NCBI RefSeq assembly: GCF_014170305.1
Contig: NZ_LZZT01000047.1
Coordinates: 248,001-312,000 of the forward strand
DNA length: 64,000 nucleotides
Direction: 5' to 3'
Origin: Achromobacter sp. UMC71
GTDB lineage: Bacteria; Pseudomonadota; Gammaproteobacteria; Burkholderiales; Burkholderiaceae_B
The position numbers and the translations under genes are program-made. Positions 31,313 through 47,157 of the stretch are shown in pieces (within the stretch, counting starts at the first letter, position 1; each line of letters starts with the position of its first letter). The notes beneath the pieces are model-generated. The model saw nothing but the letters and a program-made list of their open reading frames with translations. It was not told the DNA's origin and did no database searches.

Positions 31313-31927
31313 ATGACCGACGCCGTACCCATCAGCCAAGCCGACTACGACCTGCCCCTGGAAAAACTGGAATCCCACCTGCTGGCGCAGCGCCAGCGCG
31401 CGGCGGACGTGGTCAATGCGGCGACGCGCAACTGGACCTGGGTGCGCCATGGCGCGTTCCTGGCGTCCATCGTCATCGTCGGCATCGAGAAACTGACGAC
31501 CGGCAAGGTCGGCGCCAATACCGCGGTCTTCGCCAGCGTGATACTGCTGATGGCATTGAGCTTCATCGCCGCGGCCAAGACCCGCCGCATCATCAAAGGC
31601 CTGGGCAACGGGCAGCCCACACCCAAGTGGGTGCTCAAGCGCATGATCCGCAAAACCATTTTCAAGGGCGCCGACAGTCTGCGCGGTTCAGCCCGGTTCT
31701 ATCCGGATCGTTTCGTGCTGGAGCAGAACGGCAGCCATTTCGAATCCGATTACGAAAACGACAAGATCGAATTGATCGCCCTGACGCCGGATTATCTGCA
31801 GATCATTCCGGTGCAACGCAAGGACGTGCCCGACGAGGTGTATTTCATTCCGCTGGCGGCGGTGGACCAGCCCGAGGAACTGCTGAAGTTCCTGGGCGGC
31901 AAGCCTAATTATGTGGATGCGGTGTAG
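31313..31927 (+). CDS. Membrane protein with YcxB-like C-terminal domain
   Basis: A 204-residue protein. Two membrane helices (HGAFLASIVIVGIEKL and FASVILLMALSFIAAA) follow a soluble N-terminal helix. The C-terminal 100 residues form a beta-rich domain (GSARFYPDRFVLEQNGSHFESDYENDKIELIALTPDYLQIIP) like YcxB/PH-like domains. ATG at 31313 follows AAAGG. No known function and no operon partner. Confidence 0.65.
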   Translation: MTDAVPISQADYDLPLEKLESHLLAQRQRAADVVNAATRNWTWVRHGAFLASIVIVGIEKLTTGKVGANTAVFASVILLMALSFIAAAKTRRIIKGLGNGQPTPKWVLKRMIRKTIFKGADSLRGSARFYPDRFVLEQNGSHFESDYENDKIELIALTPDYLQIIPVQRKDVPDEVYFIPLAAVDQPEELLKFLGGKPNYVDAV

Positions 31928-31954
31928 CGAGAGAAGCTCGGCTTATCGCCGCGT

Positions 31955-32887
31955 TCATTCATATGCCTGCTTGGCCGCGGACCATTTGAAGGTCCGCTTC
32001 CACTTTCCGCCTTGCTGGCGCAGCTGGATATCAAAGTAGCCGCCCGTCTTGCCGGGCAGCAACACCAGGGAATTGCTGGCGTCCGATACGTCATGTTCGC
32101 GTGTGCCGTCCGGGTTCCAGTCACCAGCGATCGATTTGCTGAACGACATGGGCTGGGCGAAGACGACCCGCAGGGCTGCGCCGTCGATGCGGAACAGGTA
32201 CAGCGCTTCGAAGTCGGCGCCGCCGCCGGCGTAGCCTTCGCTCCAGCCGGCGCGCAGGCCAAAGGCCACGGCGTCGGGGGCGATCTTGTACGGCGCCAGG
32301 TCAAAGCGCTTCCAGCTTTGCGGCGGCGATAGCCGCGGCGTGCCGGCGTCCTGCATGTCCAGATCGATGGGCAGGTCGATGTCGGTGTCGCTCCAGTCGG
32401 TCTGTGTGGTGACCGGGCCGTCGGTGCGCGCCACCAGCTTGGGCGCGGCGCCTGGGGCTGATTCAAATACGCCGACCCACATCTCGTTCTTGTCTTCGTC
32501 GCGCGACAGGTTGTTGCAGCCGCCGCCGCCATATTTCTGGAGCCGTTCGGCGCGCTCGGCGGTGGCCGCCAGGCAGACCATGGTGACGAACGATCCGGGC
32601 CGCTGCGGCCAGGCCTTGGCGCCGGCCACCAGCAGCCGCTTGGGATTCTGGCCGGGCGCCAGTTGCTGCAGCAGGAACGTGTCGGTGAACTCCGCCGGCA
32701 GTTGCGCGCCCAGGCCATCGGGCTGGGGTGCGCCGCTCATCTGGGCGTCGTACAGCTTGCGCGCGTCCTGGGTCTTGATGGCGCCGGGAACCTGATCCAG
32801 GGATTGCACCCGGGTGTCCGCCAACGCCAGGGGCGCGTGCAGGGCATAGACCAGCGGGCAGAGCAGCAGAGCGGGACGCAGGCGCAT
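31955..32887 (-). CDS. Secreted protein of unknown function
   Basis: A 310-residue protein with a signal peptide (MRLRPALLLCPLVYALHAPLALA) and no membrane anchor. Two cysteines (VCLAATAER and GGGCNNLSRDE) could pair in the periplasm. The middle and C-terminal parts are beta-rich (FEALYLFRIDGAALRVVFAQP; LVLLPGKTGGYFDIQLRQQGGKWKRTFKW). I do not recognise the family. It converges with the YcxB-like gene, 27 bp apart. Confidence 0.65.
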   Translation of the reverse strand: MRLRPALLLCPLVYALHAPLALADTRVQSLDQVPGAIKTQDARKLYDAQMSGAPQPDGLGAQLPAEFTDTFLLQQLAPGQNPKRLLVAGAKAWPQRPGSFVTMVCLAATAERAERLQKYGGGGCNNLSRDEDKNEMWVGVFESAPGAAPKLVARTDGPVTTQTDWSDTDIDLPIDLDMQDAGTPRLSPPQSWKRFDLAPYKIAPDAVAFGLRAGWSEGYAGGGADFEALYLFRIDGAALRVVFAQPMSFSKSIAGDWNPDGTREHDVSDASNSLVLLPGKTGGYFDIQLRQQGGKWKRTFKWSAAKQAYE

Positions 32888-33021
32888 CGATGAAACCAGG
32901 CAGTAGTGAAGTTGCGTGATTATCGCTGAACGGCGGCGGTAGAGGATCGATGAAATCTCTCAGCAAAACGTCAGGAATTTCGCGCTATCCGCCTGCTGCA
33001 ATGGCCCGTGCCCGGGCCGCG

Positions 33022-33792
33022 TCAGTCTGTCTTCCAGCCCCATTTCTCGAAGATCGCGCGGCCGTCGGGCGAGGCCAGGAAATCCACGAAAGCCTGCGCT
33101 TGCGGATTGTCCTTGCCGTACCGGGTGACGACCGCGCCGGCATCGCGGTAGATGCGATACGGCTCTTCCACCTGCACCACGTCGGCCAGTGTGGGGTTCG
33201 AGACCTGCCAGATGTTCCAGATCAGCCAGGCATCGATGCTTTTGTCCTCGGCCCATTGGCTACGCGCCTGGGCGCTGTTGCCGGCTTCGGGCAACATCAG
33301 GTTGGCCCGGAAGGCGCGCACGGTGTCGATGTCGCCCAGGCGGCCGGCCACGTCTTCCCACAGGCCGGTCTGGCCCGCGCCGGAAACGGCCATGACCTTG
33401 ATGCCAGGCTTGAGCAGGTCCTTGAACCCCTGGATACCTTTGGGATTGCCGGGCCGCACCAGGATCGCCGAGGGCCGCAGGTACAGCGTGCGTGCTTCGC
33501 GCAGGTCGAACAGGCCGGGCAGGGCGGTGGCAAAGCCGCTCATCATGTTTTCCGCACCGCTGAACAGCACGTCGGCATTTTGCTTGGCCTGCTCGGCCCA
33601 GGCGGGCGTGGGGCCGGCGGTGACCTTGACCTGGATGCCATGCTGCTTGCCGAAGGCGTCCGCGGCTTCTTTCATGGCGGGCGCCGGGCCGCCCGGGCCG
33701 TAGACGTTCAGGTCTTGCGCGGCCCAGGCGGGCTGGGCGGCCAGCGATGCCAGCGCAAGCAGGGCGCTGGCCAATAGCGTGTTCGACTTCAT
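33022..33792 (-). CDS. AcfC-like periplasmic substrate-binding protein
   Basis: A 256-residue type II periplasmic binding protein. Signal peptide MKSNTLLASALLALASLAAQPAWA, then DLNVYGPGGPAPAMKEAADAFGKQHGIQVKVTAGPTPAW. The VYGPGGP start and AKQNADVLFSGAENMM are features of the accessory colonization factor AcfC and related sulfate/molybdate-like receptors. RPGNPKGIQGFKDLL and LPEAGNSAQARSQWAEDKSIDAWLIWN follow. No ABC permease is nearby. The ligand is unknown; an oxyanion or carboxylate is likely for the fold. Confidence 0.8.
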   Translation of the reverse strand: MKSNTLLASALLALASLAAQPAWAAQDLNVYGPGGPAPAMKEAADAFGKQHGIQVKVTAGPTPAWAEQAKQNADVLFSGAENMMSGFATALPGLFDLREARTLYLRPSAILVRPGNPKGIQGFKDLLKPGIKVMAVSGAGQTGLWEDVAGRLGDIDTVRAFRANLMLPEAGNSAQARSQWAEDKSIDAWLIWNIWQVSNPTLADVVQVEEPYRIYRDAGAVVTRYGKDNPQAQAFVDFLASPDGRAIFEKWGWKTD

Positions 33793-34176
33793 AGCGGGGA
33801 CTCTCCGGCGAGGCCGGTCAACGCCCGAACTGCGCGTGACCGGCGGGTTGGCGTGAACAGGCCGCAAGCATTTCGAGTCGCGGCCCGTCAGGGGTATGGA
33901 CGTTGCCGGGCGCCCGAATATTCCAAGTGCGACATCATGCGTTGCCAATCTGCTGGTTTTCGTTCCAAAAAAAACGGACGCCAGCCCGGCAAGCCTTGTA
34001 TTTCAGTCTATATTCCCTGGGCGAAACCCGTTGCCGCCGCGGCCTGGCTCATCGCGCCCGCGCAACGCGTATTCCGTCCGCCCCGATTGCCCGGGTCCGG
34101 CGCCTGCGCAGCCCTTGCGGCTGCCCAATGCGCGCCGCCGGCGCCGGTGGGCGATGAACCGAACAGAGAGAGAGCG
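33793..34176. other. Intergenic region before the giant helicase gene
   Basis: A 384-bp gap between divergent genes. It holds an A-run (AAAAAAAACGG near 33968) and a candidate plus-strand -10 (TATATT, 34009-34014) without a good -35, which would give a leader of about 150 nt for the helicase gene. Frames here are open but not protein-like. I see no repeat or hairpin of note. Confidence 0.4.
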
Positions 34177-37100
34177 ATGGATAAGCGACAAGACCTGGAA
34201 CAACCGGCCATCCAGGAGGGCGCGGCACAGGCCGTGGCGCATGGCGAGCCGGAATCGCTTGCCCGCGACGCGATCGTCATCGACATCGAGGCCGATCCGA
34301 CCTTGGGTTATGCATCGATCCAGAACGTCGTCCCGGTGCTGCGTTCGTTACGCCTGACCAATCGTTCGCAAGACACCTTCGAGAACCTGGAAGTCCACGT
34401 CCGCTGCAATCCGGCCTTTGCGCAAAGCGCGCGGCTACGCTTTGACGTGCTGGTGCCAGGAGAAATCCGCCGTATCGCGCCGCTGGACCTGGCGCCGGAT
34501 CATGGCTACTTGGCCGGTCTGCAGGAATCGCAGCGCGCCAGCATCGACGTCACCGTGCAGGCCAGCGCTCAGGTCGTGGGCCGCGCGTCGCAGCCGGTGG
34601 CCGTGCTGGCGTACGACCAATGGGCCGGCACGCGCGCCTTGCCGGAGTTGCTGGCCGCGTTCTCGATGCCGAACAATCCGGCGGTGGACGTGCTGATCGG
34701 CAAGGCCGCCAAGCTGCTGCGCAGCCAGCATAGCGATCTGACCATGAACGGCTACCAGTCCAAGAGCCGCGACGTGGTCTGGAAGCAGGTGTCGGCCATC
34801 TACAGCACGTTGGCCGCCGAGACCTTGCATTACGCCGAACCGCCGGCCTCGTTCGGCGTGGATGGCCAGAAGATCCGCACGCCCGACCGCATCCTGGAGG
34901 CCCGCGTGGCGACCTGCCTGGACCTGGCGATGCTGTTCTCGTCGTGCCTGGAGCAGGCCGGGCTGCGCCCCGTGATCCTGATGAAGGACGGCCATGCCTG
35001 GGTGGGCGTGTGGCTGCACCCGGCGTGCTTCGCGGACCCGCTGACCGACGACGTGCAGGCGGTGCGCAAGCGCGTGGACAGCGGTGAATTCCTGGTCTTT
35101 GAAACCACCGGCATTGCCCAGCATCCCAATTTCCGCCCGTCGCTGCGGCTGGCGCTGGAACAGGGCGCCGCGCACCTGCGGGAAGAAAACACATTCCGCT
35201 ACGCCATCGACGTGCACCGCGCGAGGGAGTTGCAGATCAAGCCGCTGCCGTCGCGCGGGGGCAGCGCCGTGCCTGGCGAGGCCGAGGCCACCGAGCGGCC
35301 CGCCGCCATCGAGCCGACCCCCGACCTGCCGCCGCTGGACCCGGAGTTCGTCATCAATCTGGAACCGGCCGACGATACGCCCGAAGGCCGGCTGGCCAAG
35401 TGGAAGTCGCGCCTGCTGGATCTGACGCTGCGCAACCGGCTTCTGAATTTCAAGAACACCAAGTCGACGCTGCCGCTGGTGGCGCCGGACCTGGCGCGCC
35501 TGGAAGACGCCATCGCCGACGGCAGCGAGTTCCGCATCCGTGCGCTGCCCGCCGCGCTGATGGAAGGCAGCGACCCGCGCGTGGCGCAGGTACATGTGGA
35601 CCGCGGCGGCCGCGCGCCGCTGGACGACATGGCGCTGGAGGCCCTGGGCAACCAGGAATTGATCGCGCGGGTGCCGCAAGAAGCCCTGGACGCCAATCTG
35701 CTGACCATCTTCGGCGCGGCGCGCACCGGCCTGGAAGAGGGCGGCGCCAACACGCTGTACCTGGCCATGGGCATGCTGCGCTGGACGGAAGACCCGGCCG
35801 CGGAAAGCGCCCACCTGGCGCCGCTGATCCTGGTGCCGGTGTCGCTACAGCGCCAATCCGTACGCAGCGGATTCCGGCTGGTCAGGCACGACGATGAAAC
35901 CATCATCAACCCCACGTTGCTGCAGATGCTGCGCAACAATTACGAACTGCGCATCCCCGGCCTGGACGTGCTGCCGGCCGATGACAAGGGCGTGGACGTG
36001 GCGCGCGTGCTGCAGGCGTTCCGCCTGGCGGTGCGTGAGATCGCCGGCTGGGAGGTGCTGGAGCAGGTGCACCTGGGCATCTTCTCGTTCACCAAGTACC
36101 TGATGTGGAAGGATCTGCAGGACCGCAGCGCGCAGCTCAAGAGCAATCGCGTCGTCCAGCACCTGATCGATCGCCCGGGCCAGGCCTTTGCGCAAACGCC
36201 GTGGGATCCGCGTTTTGAACGGCTGGACGAAAGCTACAGCCCGCAGGACCTGTTGACGCCGTTGCTGTCCGATTCGTCGCAGCTGAAGGCGATCTGCGCC
36301 GTCGATGCCGGCCGTGACCTGGTGCTGGAAGGCCCGCCGGGCACGGGCAAGAGCCAGACCATCACCAACCTGATCGCGCATCTGCTGGCGCGCGGCAAGA
36401 CGGTGCTGTTCGTCTCGGAAAAAATGGCCGCGCTGGAAGTGGTGCATCGCCGCCTGGCCAATATCGGCCTGGGGCCGTTCTGCCTGGAGCTGCATTCGTC
36501 CAAGGCCCGCAAATCCGAAGTGCTGCAGCAGCTGGGCAAGGCGCTGGACCACAGCGGCCAGCGCAGCAGCGACGACTGGCTGCGCGAGGCCGAGCGCCTG
36601 GGCGTGTTGCGCCAGGAGCTGAACGGCCTGGTGGATGCGCTGCATCATCTGCATCCCAATGGCCTGACGGTGTATGACGCCATCGGCACCAGCATCCAGC
36701 ACGCCGGCCAGGGGCCGTCGCCGATGTTCTGGCCCGATGCGCACGCGCACGGCTACGGCGAGTTGGCGCAACTGCGCGAGGCCGCCCGCCGGATGGCGAC
36801 TCTGTCCGGGGAGCTGGGCGCGTTGCATGGTCATCCGCTGGCCCACATCGGCATGGCCGAATGGAGCCCCAGCTGGCAGGACGCGCTACTGGCGTCGGCG
36901 CAGGCGCTGGACCAGGCGGTGGACGGCTTCAAAGCCCGCATCGCCGCGGCAGGCGAAGGCCTGGGCGTGCCGGCTGCCGGCCTGAGCCTGGACGCCTACG
37001 CCCGCCTGGATGCGCTGATCGACGTGCTGCTGGCCGCGCCGCAGGTGCCCGCCGGCCTGGCCGCGCAGGCGCATGATCCGGCGGCCCGGCTGCAAGTGCA

Positions 37101-40100
37101 GGCGCTGGCCCGGCATGGTTTGGCGCGCAATGCGCAATGGGCGCAGGTGGGCGCGCAGTGGACGGCCGAGCTGGCGCAACTGGACGGCAACGCGCTGAAG
37201 GCGCAATGGCAGGCTGCCTGCACCGCCTGGTGGCCCAAGTCCGCTTTTGCCAAGCGCGGCGTGCGTAAACGGCTGGCGCCGCTGCGCGCCGACGGCCAGC
37301 GCCCGGACGATGCCGCCATCAACGCGATGCTGGCCCCGCTGGCGCTCGTCAACGCCGAGGATCGCGAATTGGCGGCGTTGACGGCCGATGCCCAGCGTCT
37401 GCTGCAGAACGACTACGCGGGTCTGGACACCGATTGGGAACAGGTCAGGCGCCACGAACAGTGGGCCGAGCGCTTTGCCGACGCAGTGACGCTGATGGCG
37501 GGCGACCCGGCCGCGGCCACCGACCTGCGCACGCGCTTGCAGCCGCTGGTGGGGGAAAACCGCGCCTTCCTGCAACCTGGCGCGGCGTTGGGCAAGTGCC
37601 TGCTGGAGGCGCGCAACGCCTGGCGCACGGTGCAGGACACGCTGGCGGCGGTGCAGGCCCAGGCCCAGCCCGTTGAACCGCTACAGGGCGGCGCGGATGA
37701 CAACGCCGCGCTGGAACGCATCCAGGCGGTGCTGGCCGGCTGGCGTCATCACAAGCAGTATCTGATGCCCTGGTGTGTCTGGCGCCAGGCCCGCGAGCAG
37801 GCCATTGCGCTGCAATTGCAGGCCCTGGTCGCGTCGCTGGAGCAGGGCCAGGTGCCCTTGGCCCAGGTCGAGGCGCATTTCGAATACAGCTACCGCAATT
37901 GGTGGGTCAAGAAGATCATCGATCACTCGCCGGTGCTGCGGTCTTTCTCCAGCGCCGACCACGAGCGCAAGATCCGCGAGTTCCGCCAGGCCGACGACCG
38001 CTTCCAGCAACTGACCTCGGCCTATATCGGGGCATTGCTGGCCGGCAAGGTGCCCGCGGGCAACGGCATCCTGGTCAGCCCCGACAGCGAGCTGGGCCTG
38101 CTGCGTCGCGAACTGCAGAAGAAGGCCCGCCATGTGCCGGTGCGCCAGCTGATGCAGCGCCTGCCGTCGCTGCTGCCTAAGCTGAAGCCGTGCCTGCTGA
38201 TGTCGCCGCTGTCGGTGGCGCAGTACCTGGATGCCGGCCATTCGCAGTTCGACGTCGTGGTGTTCGACGAAGCGTCGCAGATTCCCGTGTGGGATTCGGT
38301 GGGCGCCATCGCCCGCGGCCAGCAGTTGGTGGTGGTGGGCGACACCAAGCAGCTGCCGCCCACCAGCTTCTTTAGCAAGTCGACGAACGAAGAAGACGGC
38401 GCCGGCGACGACGGCCAGGTCGAAGACCTGGAGAGCATCCTGGACGAGTGCCTGGGCGCGGACATGAACCGCCTGCGCCTGCAATGGCACTACCGCAGCA
38501 AGCACGAAAGCCTGATCACGTTCAGCAACGTCACCTATTACGACTCGCAGCTCATCACCTTCCCGTCGCCGGTCACCGATGACGTGGCTGTGCGGCTGGA
38601 GCGCGTGGCGGGTGTGTACGACCGTGGCGGCAGCCGTACCAACCGGCAGGAGGCCGAAGCCATCGTCAGGGGTATCGAGCAGCACTATCTGGACAAGGCG
38701 CGCCGCCGCCAGACGCTGGGCGTGGTCACCTTCAACCAGCCCCAGCAATCGCTCATCGAAACCCTGCTGGACGCGCGCCGCCGCGCCAATGCCGAGCTGG
38801 ACAAGGCCATCTCGGCCCAGTCGCGCGAGCCGCTGTTCATCAAGAACCTGGAGAACGTGCAGGGCGACGAGCGCGACGTGATCTATTTTTCGATCACCTA
38901 CGGCCCGGATGCGGCCGGCAAGATGACGATGAACTTCGGCCCGCTGAACGGCGAAGGCGGCCACCGCCGCCTGAACGTCGCGATCTCGCGGGCCCGCGAG
39001 GGCGTGGTGATCTACAGCACGCTGCTGCCCGAGCAGATCGACCTGTCGCGGGTGCGCGCGGCGGGCGTGCGCGACCTGAAGCACTACCTGGAATTCGCGC
39101 TCAAGGGTCCGCGCGCGCTGGTCGAGCAATCCCTGCCCTCGGGCCGCGAACCCGACAGCCCGTTTGAGACGCAGGTCATCAAGGTGCTGCGCGAGCGCGG
39201 CTGGGTGGTGCATCCGCAGGTCGGTTGCTCGGGCTACCGCATCGACATGGGCGTGGTGGATCCGCGCGCGCCGGGGCGGTATCTGCTGGGCATCGAATGC
39301 GATGGCCGTGCCTACCATTCCGGCGCCACCGCGCGCGATCGCGACCGCCTGCGGCAGGTCGTATTGGAAGGCTTGGGCTGGCGGCTGCACCGGGTCTGGT
39401 CCACGGATTGGTGGATCAACCCCGAGCGGGAAGTGGAAAAGCTGCTGGCGCGCCTGGAGACGGAATTGGAGCGTGTGGTGGACGAGGCGCCCGAGGCGGA
39501 GCCCGACGAGGCGTCGCCGTCCGAGACCGGAACACAGGACGATGGCGCGGAATTCGTGATCACCACCGAAGAGGGCGCCGCGGGATGGTCGGGTGCTTCG
39601 ACGCCGACGGCACCGGCCGGTGTGGCGCCGCTGATCGATCCGGCCAGCGGCATTACGCCCTACCGGGTAGCCGACCTGCCGCCTGGCGAGGCCGACGCGT
39701 TCTACACCCGGGCCAACAATGCCCGTCTGGCGGACGCGCTGCGTCAGGTCATCGATACCGAGGGCCCCATTCCTGAAACCGTGCTGCATCGCCGGGTGGC
39801 CCGCGCCTGGGGCCTGGAGCGCACGGGAGTGCGGATCGTGGAGCGCCTGCGCACCTTGACGCCCGCCGACGTCGCCGAGACGCGCGAAGGGGATGTGACC
39901 TATTACTGGCCCACCGGCGTGCAGCCCGATACCTGGGCGGGTTTCCGTGGCGCGGGGCAAGACGAAGCCACGCGCCGCCGGGTCGATGACGTCTGCCTGG
40001 AGGAATTGGCCAACGGCGTGCTGCGGGTGCTGGCCATGACGGGCAATGCGCCCAAGGCGGATGTGATCAAGTCGGTGTGCCGTCTGCTTGGCTTGTCGCG

Positions 40101-40200
40101 GACCTTGGCGGACGCGGAAACCCGGGTCGGTCAAGCAGTGTCGGCGCTGGCGGCGCAAGGGCGTGTGGGCGATGCGGCCGGGATCTTGCGGGTGGTCTGA
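34177..40200 (+). CDS. 2007-residue transglutaminase-like / DUF4011 / SF1 helicase / Vsr-type nuclease / DUF3320 protein
   Basis: Domains in order: an N-terminal beta region; a transglutaminase-like domain about 160-310 with Cys247 (TCLDLAML) and His273 (DGHAWVGVWL); DUF4011 from about 405 (WKSRLLDLTLRNRLLNF); an SF1 helicase split by a long insert, with Walker A GPPGTGKS at 719-726, Walker B VVVFDEAS (D1364, E1365), GDTKQLPPTS at 1389, LQWHYRSKHESL and NVAISRARE near 1605; a PD-(D/E)XK/Vsr-like nuclease with E1664, D1690 and ECDG at 1707; and DUF3320 from about 1826 to the end. DUF4011-helicase-Vsr proteins have been reported as single-gene anti-phage systems (named hhe, as I recall). ATG at 34177 follows a GAGAGAGAG stretch. 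All motifs are intact, so it is probably active. Confidence 0.88.
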   Translation: MDKRQDLEQPAIQEGAAQAVAHGEPESLARDAIVIDIEADPTLGYASIQNVVPVLRSLRLTNRSQDTFENLEVHVRCNPAFAQSARLRFDVLVPGEIRRIAPLDLAPDHGYLAGLQESQRASIDVTVQASAQVVGRASQPVAVLAYDQWAGTRALPELLAAFSMPNNPAVDVLIGKAAKLLRSQHSDLTMNGYQSKSRDVVWKQVSAIYSTLAAETLHYAEPPASFGVDGQKIRTPDRILEARVATCLDLAMLFSSCLEQAGLRPVILMKDGHAWVGVWLHPACFADPLTDDVQAVRKRVDSGEFLVFETTGIAQHPNFRPSLRLALEQGAAHLREENTFRYAIDVHRARELQIKPLPSRGGSAVPGEAEATERPAAIEPTPDLPPLDPEFVINLEPADDTPEGRLAKWKSRLLDLTLRNRLLNFKNTKSTLPLVAPDLARLEDAIADGSEFRIRALPAALMEGSDPRVAQVHVDRGGRAPLDDMALEALGNQELIARVPQEALDANLLTIFGAARTGLEEGGANTLYLAMGMLRWTEDPAAESAHLAPLILVPVSLQRQSVRSGFRLVRHDDETIINPTLLQMLRNNYELRIPGLDVLPADDKGVDVARVLQAFRLAVREIAGWEVLEQVHLGIFSFTKYLMWKDLQDRSAQLKSNRVVQHLIDRPGQAFAQTPWDPRFERLDESYSPQDLLTPLLSDSSQLKAICAVDAGRDLVLEGPPGTGKSQTITNLIAHLLARGKTVLFVSEKMAALEVVHRRLANIGLGPFCLELHSSKARKSEVLQQLGKALDHSGQRSSDDWLREAERLGVLRQELNGLVDALHHLHPNGLTVYDAIGTSIQHAGQGPSPMFWPDAHAHGYGELAQLREAARRMATLSGELGALHGHPLAHIGMAEWSPSWQDALLASAQALDQAVDGFKARIAAAGEGLGVPAAGLSLDAYARLDALIDVLLAAPQVPAGLAAQAHDPAARLQVQALARHGLARNAQWAQVGAQWTAELAQLDGNALKAQWQAACTAWWPKSAFAKRGVRKRLAPLRADGQRPDDAAINAMLAPLALVNAEDRELAALTADAQRLLQNDYAGLDTDWEQVRRHEQWAERFADAVTLMAGDPAAATDLRTRLQPLVGENRAFLQPGAALGKCLLEARNAWRTVQDTLAAVQAQAQPVEPLQGGADDNAALERIQAVLAGWRHHKQYLMPWCVWRQAREQAIALQLQALVASLEQGQVPLAQVEAHFEYSYRNWWVKKIIDHSPVLRSFSSADHERKIREFRQADDRFQQLTSAYIGALLAGKVPAGNGILVSPDSELGLLRRELQKKARHVPVRQLMQRLPSLLPKLKPCLLMSPLSVAQYLDAGHSQFDVVVFDEASQIPVWDSVGAIARGQQLVVVGDTKQLPPTSFFSKSTNEEDGAGDDGQVEDLESILDECLGADMNRLRLQWHYRSKHESLITFSNVTYYDSQLITFPSPVTDDVAVRLERVAGVYDRGGSRTNRQEAEAIVRGIEQHYLDKARRRQTLGVVTFNQPQQSLIETLLDARRRANAELDKAISAQSREPLFIKNLENVQGDERDVIYFSITYGPDAAGKMTMNFGPLNGEGGHRRLNVAISRAREGVVIYSTLLPEQIDLSRVRAAGVRDLKHYLEFALKGPRALVEQSLPSGREPDSPFETQVIKVLRERGWVVHPQVGCSGYRIDMGVVDPRAPGRYLLGIECDGRAYHSGATARDRDRLRQVVLEGLGWRLHRVWSTDWWINPEREVEKLLARLETELERVVDEAPEAEPDEASPSETGTQDDGAEFVITTEEGAAGWSGASTPTAPAGVAPLIDPASGITPYRVADLPPGEADAFYTRANNARLADALRQVIDTEGPIPETVLHRRVARAWGLERTGVRIVERLRTLTPADVAETREGDVTYYWPTGVQPDTWAGFRGAGQDEATRRRVDDVCLEELANGVLRVLAMTGNAPKADVIKSVCRLLGLSRTLADAETRVGQAVSALAAQGRVGDAAGILRVV

Positions 40201-40557: not shown

Positions 40558-41376
40558 ATGAAAAAAACAATCCTCCTGGCGTCTGCTTGCGCCGCGCTGC
40601 TTCAGGCTTGCGCGCCGGTTTCCTCTCCTAGCGAAGGATCGTCCACGATGTCCACCCCCGCCGCCACGTCCGCTTCGACCCAGTTGAGCCTGCCCGCCTA
40701 TTACTGGCGCCTGGCATCCGCCACCGACGCATCGGGCAAGGCCATCGCCGCCCTGCAGAAAGGCATCGAACAGCCCGTGCGCCTGACGTTCTCGGCTGAC
40801 GCCTTGAATATCCGCGGCGGCTGCAATGCGCAGTTCGGCGGCTATACGTATCAGAACGGCGTGCTGCACGTCGCTAACCTGGCCTCCACCATGAAGGCAT
40901 GCGAACCGAGCCTGATGCAGCTGGACGCCGAACTCGGCCGCCATCTGAAGGGCGATCTGCGCGCCACGCTGGGCGGCGAGGCCTCGGAACCTGGCCTGAC
41001 CCTGGTGGCGCAAGACGGTAGCGTGCTCAAGTTCGTTGGCGAGCCGACGCCGGAAACGCTGTACGGCGGCCCGGGCGAAACCATTTTCCTGGAAGTGGCC
41101 GCCAAGCGCACGCAATGCAGCCATCCGATGATTCCCAATTACCAGTGCCTGATGGTGCGCGAGCGCCGCTACAACGATGCCGGCGTGCAACTGCCGCCGC
41201 AGGAAGAATGGCATCCGCTGTATCAGTCGATCGAAGGCTACGAACACCACGACGGCGTGCGCACCGTGCTGCGCGTGAAGCGCTACGATTGGAAGAACCC
41301 GCCCGCCGATGCGCCGTCGAAGGTATATGTGCTGGACATGGTGGTCGAGCAGGACGCGTCGGGTAAGAAGAAGTAG
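40558..41376 (+). CDS. META / DUF4377-type lipoprotein
   Basis: A 272-residue lipoprotein: signal MKKTILLASACAALLQAC with lipobox LQAC (Cys18). The META domain follows (YYWRLASATDASGKAI, then LNIRGGCNAQFGGYTYQNGVLHVANLASTMKACEPSL), as in HslJ-like stress proteins. The C-terminal part with IFLEVAAKRTQCSHPMIPNYQCLMVRERRY matches DUF4377. This combination is seen in outer-membrane stress proteins; the exact role is unknown. A strong terminator follows. Confidence 0.85.
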   Translation: MKKTILLASACAALLQACAPVSSPSEGSSTMSTPAATSASTQLSLPAYYWRLASATDASGKAIAALQKGIEQPVRLTFSADALNIRGGCNAQFGGYTYQNGVLHVANLASTMKACEPSLMQLDAELGRHLKGDLRATLGGEASEPGLTLVAQDGSVLKFVGEPTPETLYGGPGETIFLEVAAKRTQCSHPMIPNYQCLMVRERRYNDAGVQLPPQEEWHPLYQSIEGYEHHDGVRTVLRVKRYDWKNPPADAPSKVYVLDMVVEQDASGKKK

Positions 41377-41570: not shown

Positions 41571-42077
41571 ATGGCTGCCACCGATCCCACCCCGCAGCAC
41601 ACGCTTCATACGCTATACCAAGACCATCAGGGCTGGCTGCAGGGCTGGCTGCGTAAAAAGCTAGGATGCGCGTTCGACGCGGCCGATCTGGTGCATGACA
41701 CCTATCTGCGGGTCTTGAGCCGCCGCGAGCCGGGCGCTATCCGTGAACCGCGTTCGTATCTGGCCACCATCGCCCATGGCCTGATGGTGAACCATCTGCG
41801 GCGCCGCGACCTGGAGCGCGCCTACCTGGAAACGCTGGCGCACCTGCCCGACCACATGGCCCCCTCGCCGGAAACCCGCGCGTTGGCCCTGGAAGCGCTG
41901 TACGAGATCGACGCCATGCTCGACGGCCTGCCCGTCGCGGTCAGGCGTGCGTTCCTGCTGTGCCAGCTGGAAGGCATCACGCATGCCGAGATCGCCAAGA
42001 GGCTGCGCGTGTCGGTGGGGTCGGTGCGCCTGTACATCGCCCGGGCCTTGCGCCAATGCCTGGAACTGGCGCCGTGA
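41571..42077 (+). CDS. FecI-type ECF sigma factor (cassette 1)
   Basis: A 168-residue ECF sigma factor of the iron-starvation group. Region 2 is LYQDHQGWLQGWLRKKLGCAFDAADLVHDTYLRVL and region 4 VRRAFLLCQLEGITHAEIAKRLRVSVGSVRLYIARAL. It directs RNA polymerase to the downstream receptor gene after release by FecR. Its stop codon overlaps the FecR start (GTGA), so the pair is translationally coupled. A Fur box precedes it. Confidence 0.92.
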   Translation: MAATDPTPQHTLHTLYQDHQGWLQGWLRKKLGCAFDAADLVHDTYLRVLSRREPGAIREPRSYLATIAHGLMVNHLRRRDLERAYLETLAHLPDHMAPSPETRALALEALYEIDAMLDGLPVAVRRAFLLCQLEGITHAEIAKRLRVSVGSVRLYIARALRQCLELAP

Positions 42078-43051
42078 GCGGCGGGGGCATTGACCCGCGC
42101 GCGCTGGACGGCGCGGTGCAATGGTTCCTACGATTGACGTCTGGCACCGCCAACGACGCCGACCGTGCGGCCTGGCAGGCCTGGCGCCGCGCTGATCCTG
42201 AACATGAACGTGCCTGGCAACGCACCGAAGCCCTGACGCGCCGGTTCGAGGCACTGCCCAAGGGTGTGCTGCCGGTCTTGGGCCGGCCGCGCTCGGCGGG
42301 GCGCCGGCGCGCGCTGGGCAAGCTGGCGCTACTGCTCAGCGCTGGCGGCGCTGCGTGGCTGGCGTACCGCGACGACGCCTGGCGCAACTGGGTCGCCGAG
42401 TACCGCACGCCGACAGGGGCGCGGCGCGAGGTCATGCTGGCCGACCATAGCCGTGTCGTCTTGAACACGTCCACGGCGATGGATGTGCTGTTCGACGCCC
42501 AGCAGCGGCTGATCGCGCTGCATGCCGGCGAAATCCTGGTCGAGACCGCGCCCGATCCCGAACGCATCGCCCGGCCGTTTATCGTACGGACCCGCGAAGG
42601 CAGCATCACCGCGCTGGGCACCCGTTTCGTGGTGCGGCGCGACGACGGCGTATCGGCCGTGCAGGTGCTGGAAGGCGCCGTGCGCGTGGCGCCGCGCGGG
42701 GCGGCTGGCGATGGCGCTCTGGTGGTACCGGCCGGCATGGGCTTGCGTTTTGGCGACGGCGTGGCCGACCGCCCCGAACCCATCGCGGGCGATCCGTCGG
42801 CCTGGCAGCACGGCATGCTGCAGGTGGACGGCATGCCGCTCAAGCAATTCCTGGCCGAGCTGCAACGCTACCGCAGCGGCTGGATCGAATGCGCGCCGGA
42901 AGTGGCTCATCTGCCGATCTCGGGCGCGTTTCCGTCGGGCGACATCGACCGGGTACTGGCCACCGTCGCCGATACCCTGCCGCTGCAGGTGCGCTACCGC
43001 ACCCGCTACTGGGTGTCCGTGCTGCCGCGCGGCGGAAAAACTAATTTGTAA
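42074..43051 (+). CDS. FecR-type anti-sigma regulator (cassette 1)
   Basis: A 325-residue membrane sensor. The N-terminal cytoplasmic domain (AVQWFLRLTSGTANDADRAAWQAWRRADPEHERAWQR) binds the sigma factor. One weak membrane segment, LGKLALLLSAGGAAWLAY, follows, and then the periplasmic FecR domain (REVMLADHSRVVLNTSTAMDVLF, ITALGTRFVVRRDDG). The start is GTG at 42074, overlapping the FecI stop; an upstream ATG at 41960 lies inside fecI and is less likely. It passes the receptor's signal to FecI. Confidence 0.88.
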   Translation: MSGGGIDPRALDGAVQWFLRLTSGTANDADRAAWQAWRRADPEHERAWQRTEALTRRFEALPKGVLPVLGRPRSAGRRRALGKLALLLSAGGAAWLAYRDDAWRNWVAEYRTPTGARREVMLADHSRVVLNTSTAMDVLFDAQQRLIALHAGEILVETAPDPERIARPFIVRTREGSITALGTRFVVRRDDGVSAVQVLEGAVRVAPRGAAGDGALVVPAGMGLRFGDGVADRPEPIAGDPSAWQHGMLQVDGMPLKQFLAELQRYRSGWIECAPEVAHLPISGAFPSGDIDRVLATVADTLPLQVRYRTRYWVSVLPRGGKTNL

Positions 43052-43117
43052 CGCGATTAGCACTTTTCGCGTCTCATCTGGCTACGAGGGTAAGACCAAC
43101 TGTTGGAGTGCCCCGTC

Positions 43118-45559
43118 ATGCCCCCGCGTTTTCCCCGTCTGCGCACCAGCGCGTCCCGTCGCGCCCTATGCGGCGCTCGCGCGTTCGCGCTGCCGCTGGC
43201 TGCCCTGGCCGCGCCCGTCCATGCGCAGACGTCCGCCGCGCCGGTCGCGGTGGCGATCGAACCCGGCCCGCTCAGCGCCGCATTGTCGGCCTACGCCGCG
43301 CGCGCCGGCGTGCTGCTGTCGTTCGATCCGGCGCTGACGCGAGACCTGCGCACGGCGGGGCTCCAAGGCAGCTATGGCTTCGAAGAGGGCTTGCGCAAGC
43401 TGCTGGACGGCAGCGGGCTGGAGCCCTTGCGGCGGGCCGACGGCGGCTACACGCTGCGCCGCCAGCCCCAGGCTGACGTGACCGCGCTGCCCGTCGTCAC
43501 CGTGACGGGCAGCCGCGACGGCGACGCGGTCAGCGAAGGCACCGGTTCGTACACGACGCGGGCCGCCTCGTCCGCGACCCGCATGGACTTGTCCCTGCGC
43601 GAGACCCCCCAGTCGGTCAGCGTCGTCACCCGGCAGCAGATGGACGACCAGAATCTGACGACCCTGGACGACGTGTTGCGCCAGACCCCAGGCGTCGTGG
43701 CGGACAAGCAGGACGAACGCGTCACCATCACGTCGCGCGGCTTCGCCATGAACACCATGATCGATGGCGTGCCCACGTTCGCGTTCAAGACGCCCGCGGC
43801 CGAGGTCGGCATGATCAACACCGTCATCTACGACCGCATTGAAGTCGTGCGCGGCGCGGCCGGCCTGCTCAATGGGGTGGGAGAGCCGGGCGGTTCGATC
43901 AACCTGATCCGCAAGCGGCCCACCAGCGAATTCGCCGGCCATGTCACTGCCGGCGCGGGCCGCTGGAATAGCTACAACCTGGAGATGGACCTGGGCGGGC
44001 CGCTCAACAGTTCCGGTTCCGTGCGCGGCCGGGCCATCGCCTCGCGCACCGCGGGCGACAGCTTCATCGACAAGCGCAAGCGGTCCGACGATGTTTTCTA
44101 CGGCATCCTTGAGGCGGATATCACGCCCAACACGCTGTTGAGCGTGGGCTTCGAACATCAAAAGACCGCCATCGACGGCGCCAACTTCGGCCAGGCGCCC
44201 CTGTTCTACAGCGACGGCACGCGTACCGACTTTCCACGCTCGTTCAACCCCGGCACCCCATGGAGCCAGTGGGACATGTACAGCGACAAGATTTTCGTCA
44301 CGCTGGACCATCGCTTCGACAACGGCTGGCGCGTCAAGATGGACGCGAGCCGTCTGAAGAACGAGCGCCGGGCGGTCTGGGGCTACCTGTTCGAATACTT
44401 CCCTGTAGAACAGAACGGCGATTCCACCATCGAGATTCGCAAGAATCCGGCCAACTCCACCAACAAGTCCTTTGACCTGTACGCCACCGGTCCCTTCCAG
44501 GCATTCGGCAGAGAGCATCAGGCGTCGTTGGGCGTGAGCGTCAATGACTACACCAGCGAGCTGAACCTGGATTCGGCCAACCCCAACGGCTGGGACCGCC
44601 GGCCGCTCAATTTCTATCAGCTGCAGAATTTTCCCAAGCCCAGCCAGTTCTACACCTTCTACAACACCTTCCTGGACGCCAAGGAAACCGCCGTCTACGG
44701 CTCCGCCCGCCTGAAAATCGCCGAACCCCTGTCATTCGTGCTGGGCGGCCGCGCCACCTGGTACGAAGAAAAATCCAAGTCCTACAACGGCCCCGCCAAT
44801 CTCTGGACGACCAACCCTACCGCCAAGGCGAACGGCGAATTCACGCCCTATGCCGGTACGGTGCTGGACCTGAACGACACGTTCTCGGCCTACGCCAGCT
44901 ATACGCGGATCTTCATTCCCCGCACCGAACGCGACGCTACCAATGCGTTGCTGCCGCCGCAAACCGGCAAGAACTACGAACTGGGCCTCAAGGGCGAGCA
45001 CCTGGACGGCAAGCTCAACACCAGCTTCGCCGTCTTTCGCACCCAGGAAGCCAACGTGCCGGTCGAAGACCCCAGCGGCACGCCGTTGCCGGACGGCAGC
45101 ACCCCGTACCGTTCCGTGGCGGGTGCGCGCAGCAAGGGTTTTGAGGTGACGGTGGCCGGCGAGGTCGCGCGGGGCTTGCAGCTGATGGGCGGATATACCT
45201 ACTTCGCCAAGCGCGACAACGAAGGCGCCTTGCTGTTGCCGAATTACCCCGAGCGTCTGTTCCGGGTGGCGGCCAGCTATCGCCTGCCCGGGGCATGGAA
45301 CAAGCTCACGGTCGGCGCCAGCGTGAACTACCAGAGCGGGATCTATTACGACGAATCCAGCGGCCTGGGCCGCGCGACGCAGGGCGGGGTGACGGTGTTG
45401 GGGCTGATGGCCCGCTATGAATTCAGCCGGCAGGTTGCCGCGTCGATCAACATCGATAACTTGACGGACAAGCGGTACTACAGCGGGCTGGGCGGATACA
45501 ACGGGTACAACTACGGGACGCCCCGCAATGTGTGGATGAAGGTCAGCTACAAGTTCTAG
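43118..45559 (+). CDS. TonB-dependent siderophore receptor with signalling domain (cassette 1)
   Basis: An 813-residue outer-membrane receptor. After the signal peptide (ends PVHAQ) comes an STN signalling domain (LSAALSAYAARAGVLLSFDP through LLDGSGLEPL), the part that contacts FecR. The TonB box is near VTVTGSRD. The plug contains DLSLRETPQSVSVVTRQQMDDQNLTTLDDVLRQTPGV and RIEVVRGAAGLLNGVGEPGGSINLIRKRP. The barrel ends with Phe (WMKVSYKF). The length and LRETPQSVSV motif fit FpvA/FoxA-type ferric-siderophore receptors. ATG at 43118 is chosen. Confidence 0.93.
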   Translation: MPPRFPRLRTSASRRALCGARAFALPLAALAAPVHAQTSAAPVAVAIEPGPLSAALSAYAARAGVLLSFDPALTRDLRTAGLQGSYGFEEGLRKLLDGSGLEPLRRADGGYTLRRQPQADVTALPVVTVTGSRDGDAVSEGTGSYTTRAASSATRMDLSLRETPQSVSVVTRQQMDDQNLTTLDDVLRQTPGVVADKQDERVTITSRGFAMNTMIDGVPTFAFKTPAAEVGMINTVIYDRIEVVRGAAGLLNGVGEPGGSINLIRKRPTSEFAGHVTAGAGRWNSYNLEMDLGGPLNSSGSVRGRAIASRTAGDSFIDKRKRSDDVFYGILEADITPNTLLSVGFEHQKTAIDGANFGQAPLFYSDGTRTDFPRSFNPGTPWSQWDMYSDKIFVTLDHRFDNGWRVKMDASRLKNERRAVWGYLFEYFPVEQNGDSTIEIRKNPANSTNKSFDLYATGPFQAFGREHQASLGVSVNDYTSELNLDSANPNGWDRRPLNFYQLQNFPKPSQFYTFYNTFLDAKETAVYGSARLKIAEPLSFVLGGRATWYEEKSKSYNGPANLWTTNPTAKANGEFTPYAGTVLDLNDTFSAYASYTRIFIPRTERDATNALLPPQTGKNYELGLKGEHLDGKLNTSFAVFRTQEANVPVEDPSGTPLPDGSTPYRSVAGARSKGFEVTVAGEVARGLQLMGGYTYFAKRDNEGALLLPNYPERLFRVAASYRLPGAWNKLTVGASVNYQSGIYYDESSGLGRATQGGVTVLGLMARYEFSRQVAASINIDNLTDKRYYSGLGGYNGYNYGTPRNVWMKVSYKF

Positions 45560-45621
45560 CGGACCACGCCGGGGCCGGATGACGGGGAACGGAGGCGGAC
45601 GGATTGTTCGCTTCCATCAAT

Positions 45622-45640
45622 AATGATTACAATTCCCATT
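45622..45640 (+). promoter_or_regulatory. Fur box upstream of second FecI gene
   Basis: AATGATTACAATTCCCATT matches AATGATAATTATTCTCATT at 15 of 19 positions and lies 33 bp before the second sigma-factor start. Confidence 0.65.
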
Positions 45641-45672
45641 TCCGAAAATCTGAAAGCAGTCACCCCACGGCC

Positions 45673-46200
45673 ATGTCGTCCACGGAATCCCTGGAGCACC
45701 GCGAGCTTGGCAGGCTCTATCGCGATCATCATGGCTGGCTGCGCGGTTGGCTGCTGCGGCGCTTGAGCGTGCCGGCCGAAGCGGCCGATCTGGCGCAGGA
45801 CACGTTCCTGCGCCTGCTGGCCTCGCCCGCGTCCATGGCACAGTTGCAGGGCATCCGCCAGCCGCGCAGTTTCCTGGCAACGGTGGCACAGCGCACCTTG
45901 GTGGACCACATCCGCCGCCAGGTGCTGGAGCGCGCCTGGCTCGAAACCTTGGCGCAGCAGCCCGAAGCCAGCGCGATCTCTCCCGAGACGCAGGCCATCC
46001 TGCTGGAAACCATCCGCGAGATCGATGCAATGCTGTGCGGCCTGGGCGACAAGGTACGGCGCGCCTTCCTGATGTCGCAGCTCGAAGGCGCCAGCTATGC
46101 CGAGATCGCGTCCGCCCTGGGGGTGACCGTCAGTTCCGTCAAGAAGTACATGGCGCGCGCCACCGAGCATTGCCTTGTGTACGCGCTGGCCAGGCAGTAG
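45673..46200 (+). CDS. FecI-type ECF sigma factor (cassette 2)
   Basis: A 175-residue ECF sigma factor paralogous to the one at 41571. Region 2: LYRDHHGWLRGWLLRRLSVPAEAADLAQDTFLRLL. Region 4: VRRAFLMSQLEGASYAEIASALGVTVSSVKKYMARAT. ATG at 45673 is used; 45604 would add 23 residues covering the Fur box. FecR follows after 6 bp. Confidence 0.92.
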   Translation: MSSTESLEHRELGRLYRDHHGWLRGWLLRRLSVPAEAADLAQDTFLRLLASPASMAQLQGIRQPRSFLATVAQRTLVDHIRRQVLERAWLETLAQQPEASAISPETQAILLETIREIDAMLCGLGDKVRRAFLMSQLEGASYAEIASALGVTVSSVKKYMARATEHCLVYALARQ

Positions 46201-46206
46201 ACGGCC

Positions 46207-47157
46207 ATGGCGGACAAGACCATTTCGGCCGCGGCGCAGTGGTATGCGCGGCTGTGCGCGGATGACGTCACCCCTGCGGACGTGGCGGCGCATGGCCGTT
46301 GGCTGGCCGCCGACCCGGAACACGCGCGCGTCTGGCGCCAGGTCGAACGCCTGCGCGGCACCCTGGGGGCGGCGCCCGCGCGCCTGGCGGCCGATACCCT
46401 GAACCGGGTCGATCACCACTTTTCGCGCCGTCGCGCGTTGCTGCGCAATGGCCTGGGCGCCGTGGCGCTGTTCGGGATTGGCGGCCTGTTGGCCTGGCGC
46501 GCCTTGCCGGTGGACGGGATGCTGGCCGACTATCGCACCGGCACGGGTGAACGCCGCGAACTGCGGATGGCGGACGGCACCCTGCTGTGGCTGGACAGCG
46601 CCAGCGCGGTGGACGTCAAGATCGATACGCACGGCCGCCAGATCATCGTCCATTCGGGTGAAATCCTGATCGACACCGAACACGCGGCGCGGGGCCTGCC
46701 GCCGCTGCGTGTCGCCACCGTGCACGGCGCCGTGCGCCCGCTGGGCACGCGCTTCATCGTCAATCGCCAGGAAGGCCAGACGCAGGTGGCCGTGCTGCGC
46801 CATGCCGTGGCGCTGCAAGCGGCGGCGGGCGGCGACGAGGTGATCCTGCAAGCCGGCGAGCAGGGCACCCTGGAGTCCTCGGGCGCCCGTCACACAGGCG
46901 CCGTCATTGGTGAACCAGACGCCTGGACGCGGGGCTTGCTGATCGTGGATAACTGGCGGCTGGGCGACCTTATCGACCAGTTGGACCGTTACCGTTTCGG
47001 CCGGCTGCGGTGCGACGACGCCGTGGCTTCCTTGCGCGTATCCGGCGCGTTCCCCATCGACGACACCGACCGGGCGCTGGCCGCCGTCGAGCGGGCACTC
47101 CCGGTCCGGATATCGCATTTCACCCGCTACTACGTCCGCGTGGCGGCGCGCGGCTGA
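46207..47157 (+). CDS. FecR-type anti-sigma regulator (cassette 2)
   Basis: A 316-residue FecR homologue. Cytoplasmic part: AAQWYARLCADDVTPADVAAHGRWLAADPEHARVWRQVERL. Membrane segment: NGLGAVALFGIGGLLAWRAL. Periplasmic FecR domain: RELRMADGTLLWLDSASAVDVKID and VHGAVRPLGTRFIVNRQEG. The C-terminal part (DRYRFGRLRCDDAVASLRVSGAFPIDDTDRAL) is the signal-receiving STN-like fold. It pairs with the sigma factor just upstream and the receptor just downstream. Confidence 0.9.
   Translation: MADKTISAAAQWYARLCADDVTPADVAAHGRWLAADPEHARVWRQVERLRGTLGAAPARLAADTLNRVDHHFSRRRALLRNGLGAVALFGIGGLLAWRALPVDGMLADYRTGTGERRELRMADGTLLWLDSASAVDVKIDTHGRQIIVHSGEILIDTEHAARGLPPLRVATVHGAVRPLGTRFIVNRQEGQTQVAVLRHAVALQAAAGGDEVILQAGEQGTLESSGARHTGAVIGEPDAWTRGLLIVDNWRLGDLIDQLDRYRFGRLRCDDAVASLRVSGAFPIDDTDRALAAVERALPVRISHFTRYYVRVAARG

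Follow-up and report, generated by a model that had tools for sequence, protein, structure and literature searches.

A ProA-family helicase-nuclease with a conserved Cys-His domain in Achromobacter sp. UMC71, a likely anti-phage protein

In this study, we analysed a 64,000-nucleotide stretch of the Achromobacter sp. UMC71 genome (contig NZ_LZZT01000047.1, positions 248,001 to 312,000; hereafter the window, whose numbering is used throughout) and the giant protein encoded at 34177–40200 on its plus strand. The gene is an uninterrupted open reading frame (ORF) of 2007 residues, as a first-pass annotation made from the letters alone had stated, with K725, E1365, E1707, C247 and H273 at the positions named there. 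The translation matches the NCBIfam equivalog "anti-phage protein ProA" (NF058533) with 2347.2 bits against a cut-off of 1500, and the alignment pairs residues 45–1975 with positions 2–1903 of the 1903-position model. On sequence grounds, the protein is firmly placed as a well-preserved member of the ProA family, and an anti-phage function of the Achromobacter copy is likely. Nothing was found that distinguishes it from the family model. The reading frame is already open from a GTG at 33853, but the ATG at 34177 is a plausible start because the orthologues L006, L007 and L015 have only 13 open codons ahead of the position aligned with residue 1, and a purine-rich stretch lies just upstream of this ATG. 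A chance ORF or an artefact is excluded, since 22 of the 43 Achromobacter genomes examined hold a full-length orthologue and none of these contains an internal stop.

The protein begins with a β-sandwich domain (residues 33–144; 34273–34608) and a transglutaminase-like domain (residues ~156–351; 34642–35229), followed by DUF4011 (residues 412–585; 35410–35931; Pfam 163.4 bits, cut-off 22.2). The first RecA-like part of a superfamily 1 (SF1) helicase carries the Walker A motif GPPGTGKS (residues 700–790; 36274–36546) and is separated by an all-helical insert (residues ~795–1290; 36559–38046) from the remainder of the helicase, which carries the Walker B motif DEAS (residues 1300–1640; 38074–39096). 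A Vsr-type restriction endonuclease (REase) domain of the MTES_1575 family, named after the example protein MTES_1575 (residues 1663–1760; 39163–39456; PF18741, 131.8 bits, cut-off 38.2), and DUF3320 (residues 1840–1888; 39694–39840; 60 bits, cut-off 25) complete the chain. All of these features lie on the plus strand. DUF4011, the AAA_11/AAA_12 helicase pieces (~700–1612), the MTES_1575 REase and DUF3320 all exceed their Pfam cut-offs, in agreement with the first-pass annotation.

Conservation was counted in 83 aligned sequences, comprising the window protein, L002–L078 and five further loci from the genome search, with 11 duplicate or own loci excluded. Walker A is present in 83 of 83 sequences, and the Asp and Glu of Walker B in 79 of 79 (4 of the 83 being gapped). 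The acidic residues of the REase are similarly preserved (D1690 in 78/78 and E1707 in 77/78 aligned sequences). In the transglutaminase-like domain, the putative catalytic residues C247 (34915–34917) and H273 (34993–34995) occur in 80 of 80 and 81 of 81 sequences, with 3 and 2 of the 83 gapped, respectively. D249 is conserved in 80 of 80 aligned sequences and D287 varies. The adjacent D291 and D292 (35047–35052), present in 78 and 80 of 81 sequences, lie 18–19 residues after the His, and either could be the third catalytic residue.

A structure model of residues 690–1640 (pLDDT 84.1, pTM 0.49) shows a helicase core resembling UPF1/IGHMBP2 (4b3g; Z 21.2, rmsd 5.8, 360 residues aligned). For this model and that of the N-terminal region, near-duplicates (>93%) and short rows were removed from the alignments, and 57 of 66 and 64 of 71 remaining rows, respectively, were used. 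K725 of Walker A and E1365 of Walker B are 640 residues apart, and the insert of roughly 600 residues had initially been regarded as unusual. However, 605–666 residues separate the two motifs in 79 of 79 aligned sequences holding both; the four other sequences, cut or gapped around the motifs, were left out, and the 57-row helicase alignment was unsuited to this count as rows short there had been removed beforehand. An insert peculiar to the Achromobacter protein is therefore ruled out, and the helical insert of ~500 residues is, as judged from these alignments, a standard feature of the ProA family. The AAA_11 and AAA_12 matches are likewise far apart in a kinase-headed relative from genome G004.

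The AlphaFold model of the N-terminal region (mean pLDDT 91.3, pTM 0.89) contains the β-sandwich (~33–144) followed by an α/β domain (~156–351). In a second look at the Protein Data Bank (PDB), the β-sandwich was superimposed on the C-terminal barrel of factor XIII (5mhm; Z 11.0, rmsd 2.5, 96 residues aligned), indicating a likeness to the C-terminal barrels of animal transglutaminases, although many other sandwiches score similar Z values. The first row of a Foldseek search with the model was transglutaminase 3 (E 4e-5, rmsd 17.8), and only one weak match (E 0.033) emerged when solved structures were searched with a profile of the N-terminal alignment. Among 64 N-termini, including that of the window protein, 50 matched DUF553 and 40 matched Transglut_core in Pfam at E ≤ 0.1, with a best value of 7.8e-5. 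Using hhalign, the ProA N-terminus was aligned with the Transglut_core profile (22 of 30 loci, drawn from this genus and its order) at a score of 32.1 (probability 70.6, E 4.9e-6), compared with scores of 10.7–22.8 for 20 column-shuffled controls. This alignment puts C247 and H273 in register with the catalytic Cys/His pair of Transglut_core. The transglutaminase match proposed in the first-pass annotation was thus found through the relatives and the profile alignment, while the call is weak in the Achromobacter protein alone.

The same annotation had matched the DUF4011-helicase-Vsr core with a reported single-gene anti-phage system, which we take to be Hhe (NF042953; Gao_Hhe in DefenseFinder). 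The Hhe models match the Achromobacter protein in part, along its helicase-nuclease core (PADLOC, 638 bits; NCBIfam, 908), but membership is ruled out because the NCBIfam score, 907.9 bits, misses the curated cut-off of 2000. The relation to that system is therefore one of kinship, while the filing as anti-phage held, through the ProA equivalog and a match to the PADLOC candidate PDC-S37 (1358 bits over residues 404–2001). The PDC-S37 match differs in starting at residue 404, leaving the N-terminal β-sandwich and transglutaminase-like parts outside. A literature search on PDC-S37 found no paper on it, and one on transglutaminase-helicase defence gave nothing useful among the best matches. The helicase parts also match Mokosh (MkoA/MkoC) at 85–88 bits in PADLOC, with the alignment limited to the helicase stretches. 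The DefenseFinder paper mentions Gao_Hhe once, and a passage of PMC10250203 describes a core DUF4011 gene of P. aeruginosa that borders a defence hotspot.

The transglutaminase-like domain, initially considered an extra, turned out to belong to the family, as the NF058533 model takes it in and a section of the 2013 HEPN survey (PMC3710099) describes the same combination. The giant proteins in that section unite HEPN, transglutaminase-like, SF1 helicase and Vsr REase domains with winged helices overlapping DUF3320, and they lack a methylase. The survey section proposes that invading DNA is recognized directly, in a modification-free manner, and that protein cleavage provides a further line of defence. 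The Achromobacter protein has in common with these MTES_1575-type giants the transglutaminase-like domain, SF1 helicase, Vsr REase and winged helix-turn-helix/DUF3320 in a single chain without a methylase; for the transglutaminase-like part, this correspondence holds through the relatives and the profile alignment only. A possible difference is that the giants described there carry a HEPN RNase domain; the N-terminus of the Achromobacter protein models as a β-sandwich. No HEPN family was present among the best 25 of 27 Pfam matches at E ≤ 1, in which the helical insert was not searched separately. The architecture is consequently not new: the domain fusion and the leading idea were already in print in 2013, and the family is now an NCBIfam equivalog. 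With this candidate novelty removed, a sharp question remains, namely why an anti-phage helicase-nuclease retains an invariant Cys-His pair.

The ratio of nonsynonymous to synonymous substitution rates (dN/dS) was calculated for six pairs; the ranges given here cover four Achromobacter comparisons, with the most distant sequences, L013 and L035, kept out as near or at saturation. Values were 0.037–0.10 for the transglutaminase-like domain, 0.03–0.07 for DUF4011, 0–0.07 for the helicase parts and 0.04–0.12 for the REase. They were 0.12–0.23 for the insert, 0.08–0.22 for the β-sandwich, 0.10–0.29 for the DUF3320 end and 0.19–0.82 for the linker at 1771–1835. L013 gave 0.051, 0.030 and 0.126, ranked as in the four comparisons, and L035 gave 0.190, 0.235 and 0.482, for the transglutaminase-like domain, the helicase (residues 1300–1640 for L013) and the insert, respectively. 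The enzymatic parts of ProA are preserved by purifying selection, and the helical insert evolves faster than the helicase core. The freer insert and β-sandwich might be as expected of sensing surfaces.

Within Achromobacter, some match was detected in 28 of the 43 genomes. The full-length orthologues, found in 22 genomes including that of UMC71, share 83–100% identity (that of G038 matched in two pieces). A comparison across relatives had been suggested by the first-pass annotation; in these genomes the gene is not core. All 22 orthologues adjoin a META/DUF4377 gene, at distances of 159–2160 bp; this marker of the site is located at 40558–41376 on the plus strand of the window and occurs in 43 of 43 genomes. 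No other neighbour is conserved at the site. When mapped on an rpoB tree, which comprises 42 genomes because G028 had no rpoB match, the presence of proA requires at least 6 changes, compared with a mean of 14.2 for shuffled labels (0 of 500 as low). This was a quick tree in which 13 of 39 inner branches are open, and 5 of the 6 changes are forced by starred branches. ProA distances correlate with rpoB distances (Mantel rho 0.86, 22 genomes; 0 of 2000 permutations as high) and more weakly with those of the linked META gene (rho 0.54 by identity in 21 genomes and 0.57 by bits in 19). The site is empty in G011, the sister of carrier G012, where the counterparts of window positions 33846 and 40451 are only 316 bp apart. 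The GC content at third codon positions (GC3) of proA is 0.87, inside the range of four neighbours (0.83–0.89), and the overall GC content of 68.2% is slightly above theirs (64–66%). A recent horizontal gain is not supported, given the GC3 value, the few changes on the rpoB tree and the Mantel correlation. The pattern would fit a single early gain with several losses. Together with the vacant site of a closely related sister species, the 22 orthologues at one core gene form a natural comparison set.

Across a sample of the class, 7 of 369 genomes (own included) pass the ProA cut-off and 80 have some match. Plasmid records gave 477 matches, 64 of them spanning 80% or more of the query, and phage records gave two, one over 94% of the query. 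Three of the top four plasmid rows were inspected, with selected neighbours scanned, and these neighbourhoods are illustrative rather than a count. On a Comamonas antarctica plasmid (L156), a 42.6% relative is located between Gabija genes and a ThsB-like TIR gene (Thoeris), beside a PDC-S02 gene (GajA 709 bits, ThsB-like 342 bits; GajB is truncated where the stretch ends). On a conjugative P. aeruginosa plasmid, a helicase gene matching GajB models (best 156 bits) comes one gene on from a 42.9% relative, and the P. phymatum relative adjoins a PDC-S06 candidate.

We propose, as the probable explanation, that the Achromobacter protein is a ProA-family, single-protein and modification-free anti-phage helicase-nuclease whose Cys-His domain provides a regulated second activity. 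For the DNA substrate, the trigger, the Cys-His activity, the independence of other genes and phage protection by the Achromobacter copy, we infer the following scheme. With help from the DUF3320 winged helices at the C-terminus, the UPF1-like SF1 helicase would load onto invading DNA, for which ends or replication intermediates are the probable loading sites. Movement powered by ATP would then position the Vsr-type nuclease to cut the DNA, and no partner methylase would be required. DUF4011, the helical insert and the N-terminal β-sandwich may keep ProA inactive until a phage feature engages. The Cys-His domain would contribute a second function that is active and regulated; its likeliest form is a cut of the cysteine-peptidase type, made in a phage or host protein or in ProA itself. 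The anti-phage interpretation is supported by the ProA and PDC-S37 scores, the proposal of modification-free defence in PMC3710099, the UPF1-like helicase core, the low dN/dS of the enzymatic parts and the full or almost full conservation of the key residues in helicase, nuclease and Cys-His domain. Further support comes from the accessory distribution (22/43), the empty sister site, an MkoC-like gene at the META flank of another genome and the relative in a plasmid defence cluster.

Several observations weigh against this proposal. The N-terminal region alone stays below the Pfam cut-offs (DUF553, 18.0 bits against 20.5; Transglut_core, 15.9 against 23), and the structure searches with the N-terminal model matched mainly the β-sandwich, hardly probing the Cys-His domain. 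The scores below cut-off, along with the unsettled third catalytic residue and the varying D287, would suit a transglutaminase-like domain that is catalytically dead and serves only as a protein- or phage-binding scaffold. We consider this improbable, as no exception to the Cys was seen in 80 sequences or to the His in 81, which would be unusual for a dead site. The founding study for the name ProA, or a phage paper on it, was not found among the best literature matches. A PADLOC scan of the seven nearby ORFs in the window gave no match; three of these ORFs (31909–32718 on the minus strand, 32950–33777 on the plus strand and 45556–47118 on the minus strand) are probably not genes. Those neighbours that could be recognized belong to transport, iron uptake and META; proA stands alone here, and no defence island, in the sense of other defence genes beside it in the window, was found among the neighbours scanned. 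Finally, inheritance within the genus appears largely vertical, which would suit a housekeeping role too. These last features, and the relatives on conjugative plasmids, would also fit a host DNA-maintenance enzyme or a general barrier to foreign DNA such as plasmids and integrative elements, rather than phage defence. We regard this as rather unlikely, however, because an orthologue is absent from 21 of the 43 genomes and the site is empty in a close sister, the equivalog is named anti-phage, and the plasmid relative lies among defence genes.

The N-terminal part is exchangeable, because a relative in G004 (2153 residues; L116:5944-12405) has a protein kinase ahead of DUF4011, the SF1 helicase and the MTES_1575 REase. 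The kinase sits where ProA has the transglutaminase-like part. In G045 and in a G015 protein, the match starts after the transglutaminase-like part. An alternative with the Cys-His domain as principal effector has the helicase and nuclease sensing phage DNA, whereupon their engagement would release a cysteine protease that cuts a host protein and aborts infection; the exchangeable N-terminal part is in keeping with it. The invariance of C247 and H273, a constraint nearly as strong as that of the helicase and the suggestion of protein cleavage in the quoted section of PMC3710099 are in line with this, but the nuclease is conserved equally and the core occurs without the transglutaminase-like part, so that we judge it unlikely. 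Returning to the anti-phage helicase-nuclease with a regulated second activity, we tentatively suggest a more specific form, in which the Cys-His domain, as a catalytically active cysteine peptidase or else a crosslinking transglutaminase, might be turned on once the helicase-nuclease engages phage DNA, and the faster-evolving insert and β-sandwich might sense the phage. If true, DNA destruction would be coupled to a protein-directed second strike in one polypeptide.

Separate pieces of the ProA chain were also observed. In a 314-residue protein of G170 (L151:2137-3081), the ProA match is confined to the initial 109 and final 139 positions of the model, which correspond to the β-sandwich and DUF3320, as though the enzymatic middle were absent. 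Small proteins in G265 and G404 match the DUF3320 end. Two TPR/NHL-repeat proteins of ~1670 residues (L158:923-5935 and L159:1848-6872) have a C-terminal stretch that matches the β-sandwich and transglutaminase-like part of the model.

The META flank is a small variable site that has taken up other conflict genes, as in G026, where a full-length MkoC-like (Mokosh) gene (996 bits; L109:3745-7245) adjoins META on the proA flank. In G013, a PAAR-motif protein and a 130-residue ORF, of lower GC3, lie between proA and META (L101:1138-2499 and 749-1141, both on the minus strand), and G034 has similar-sized ORFs at the same place (L102:1543-2892, plus strand). ORFs of 1339 and 1510 residues in G023 (L104:3756-7775) and G024 (L112:3296-7828) lie less than 7 kb from META; these large ORFs (GC3 0.66–0.70) had no Pfam or PADLOC match. 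In the window, the left neighbour of proA encodes a periplasmic substrate-binding protein (33022–33789, minus strand), which is found in 21 of the 43 genomes of the genus. On the right, the META gene is adjoined by a cassette (41571–45559) encoding an extracytoplasmic function (ECF) sigma factor, a FecR-like regulator and a siderophore TonB receptor.

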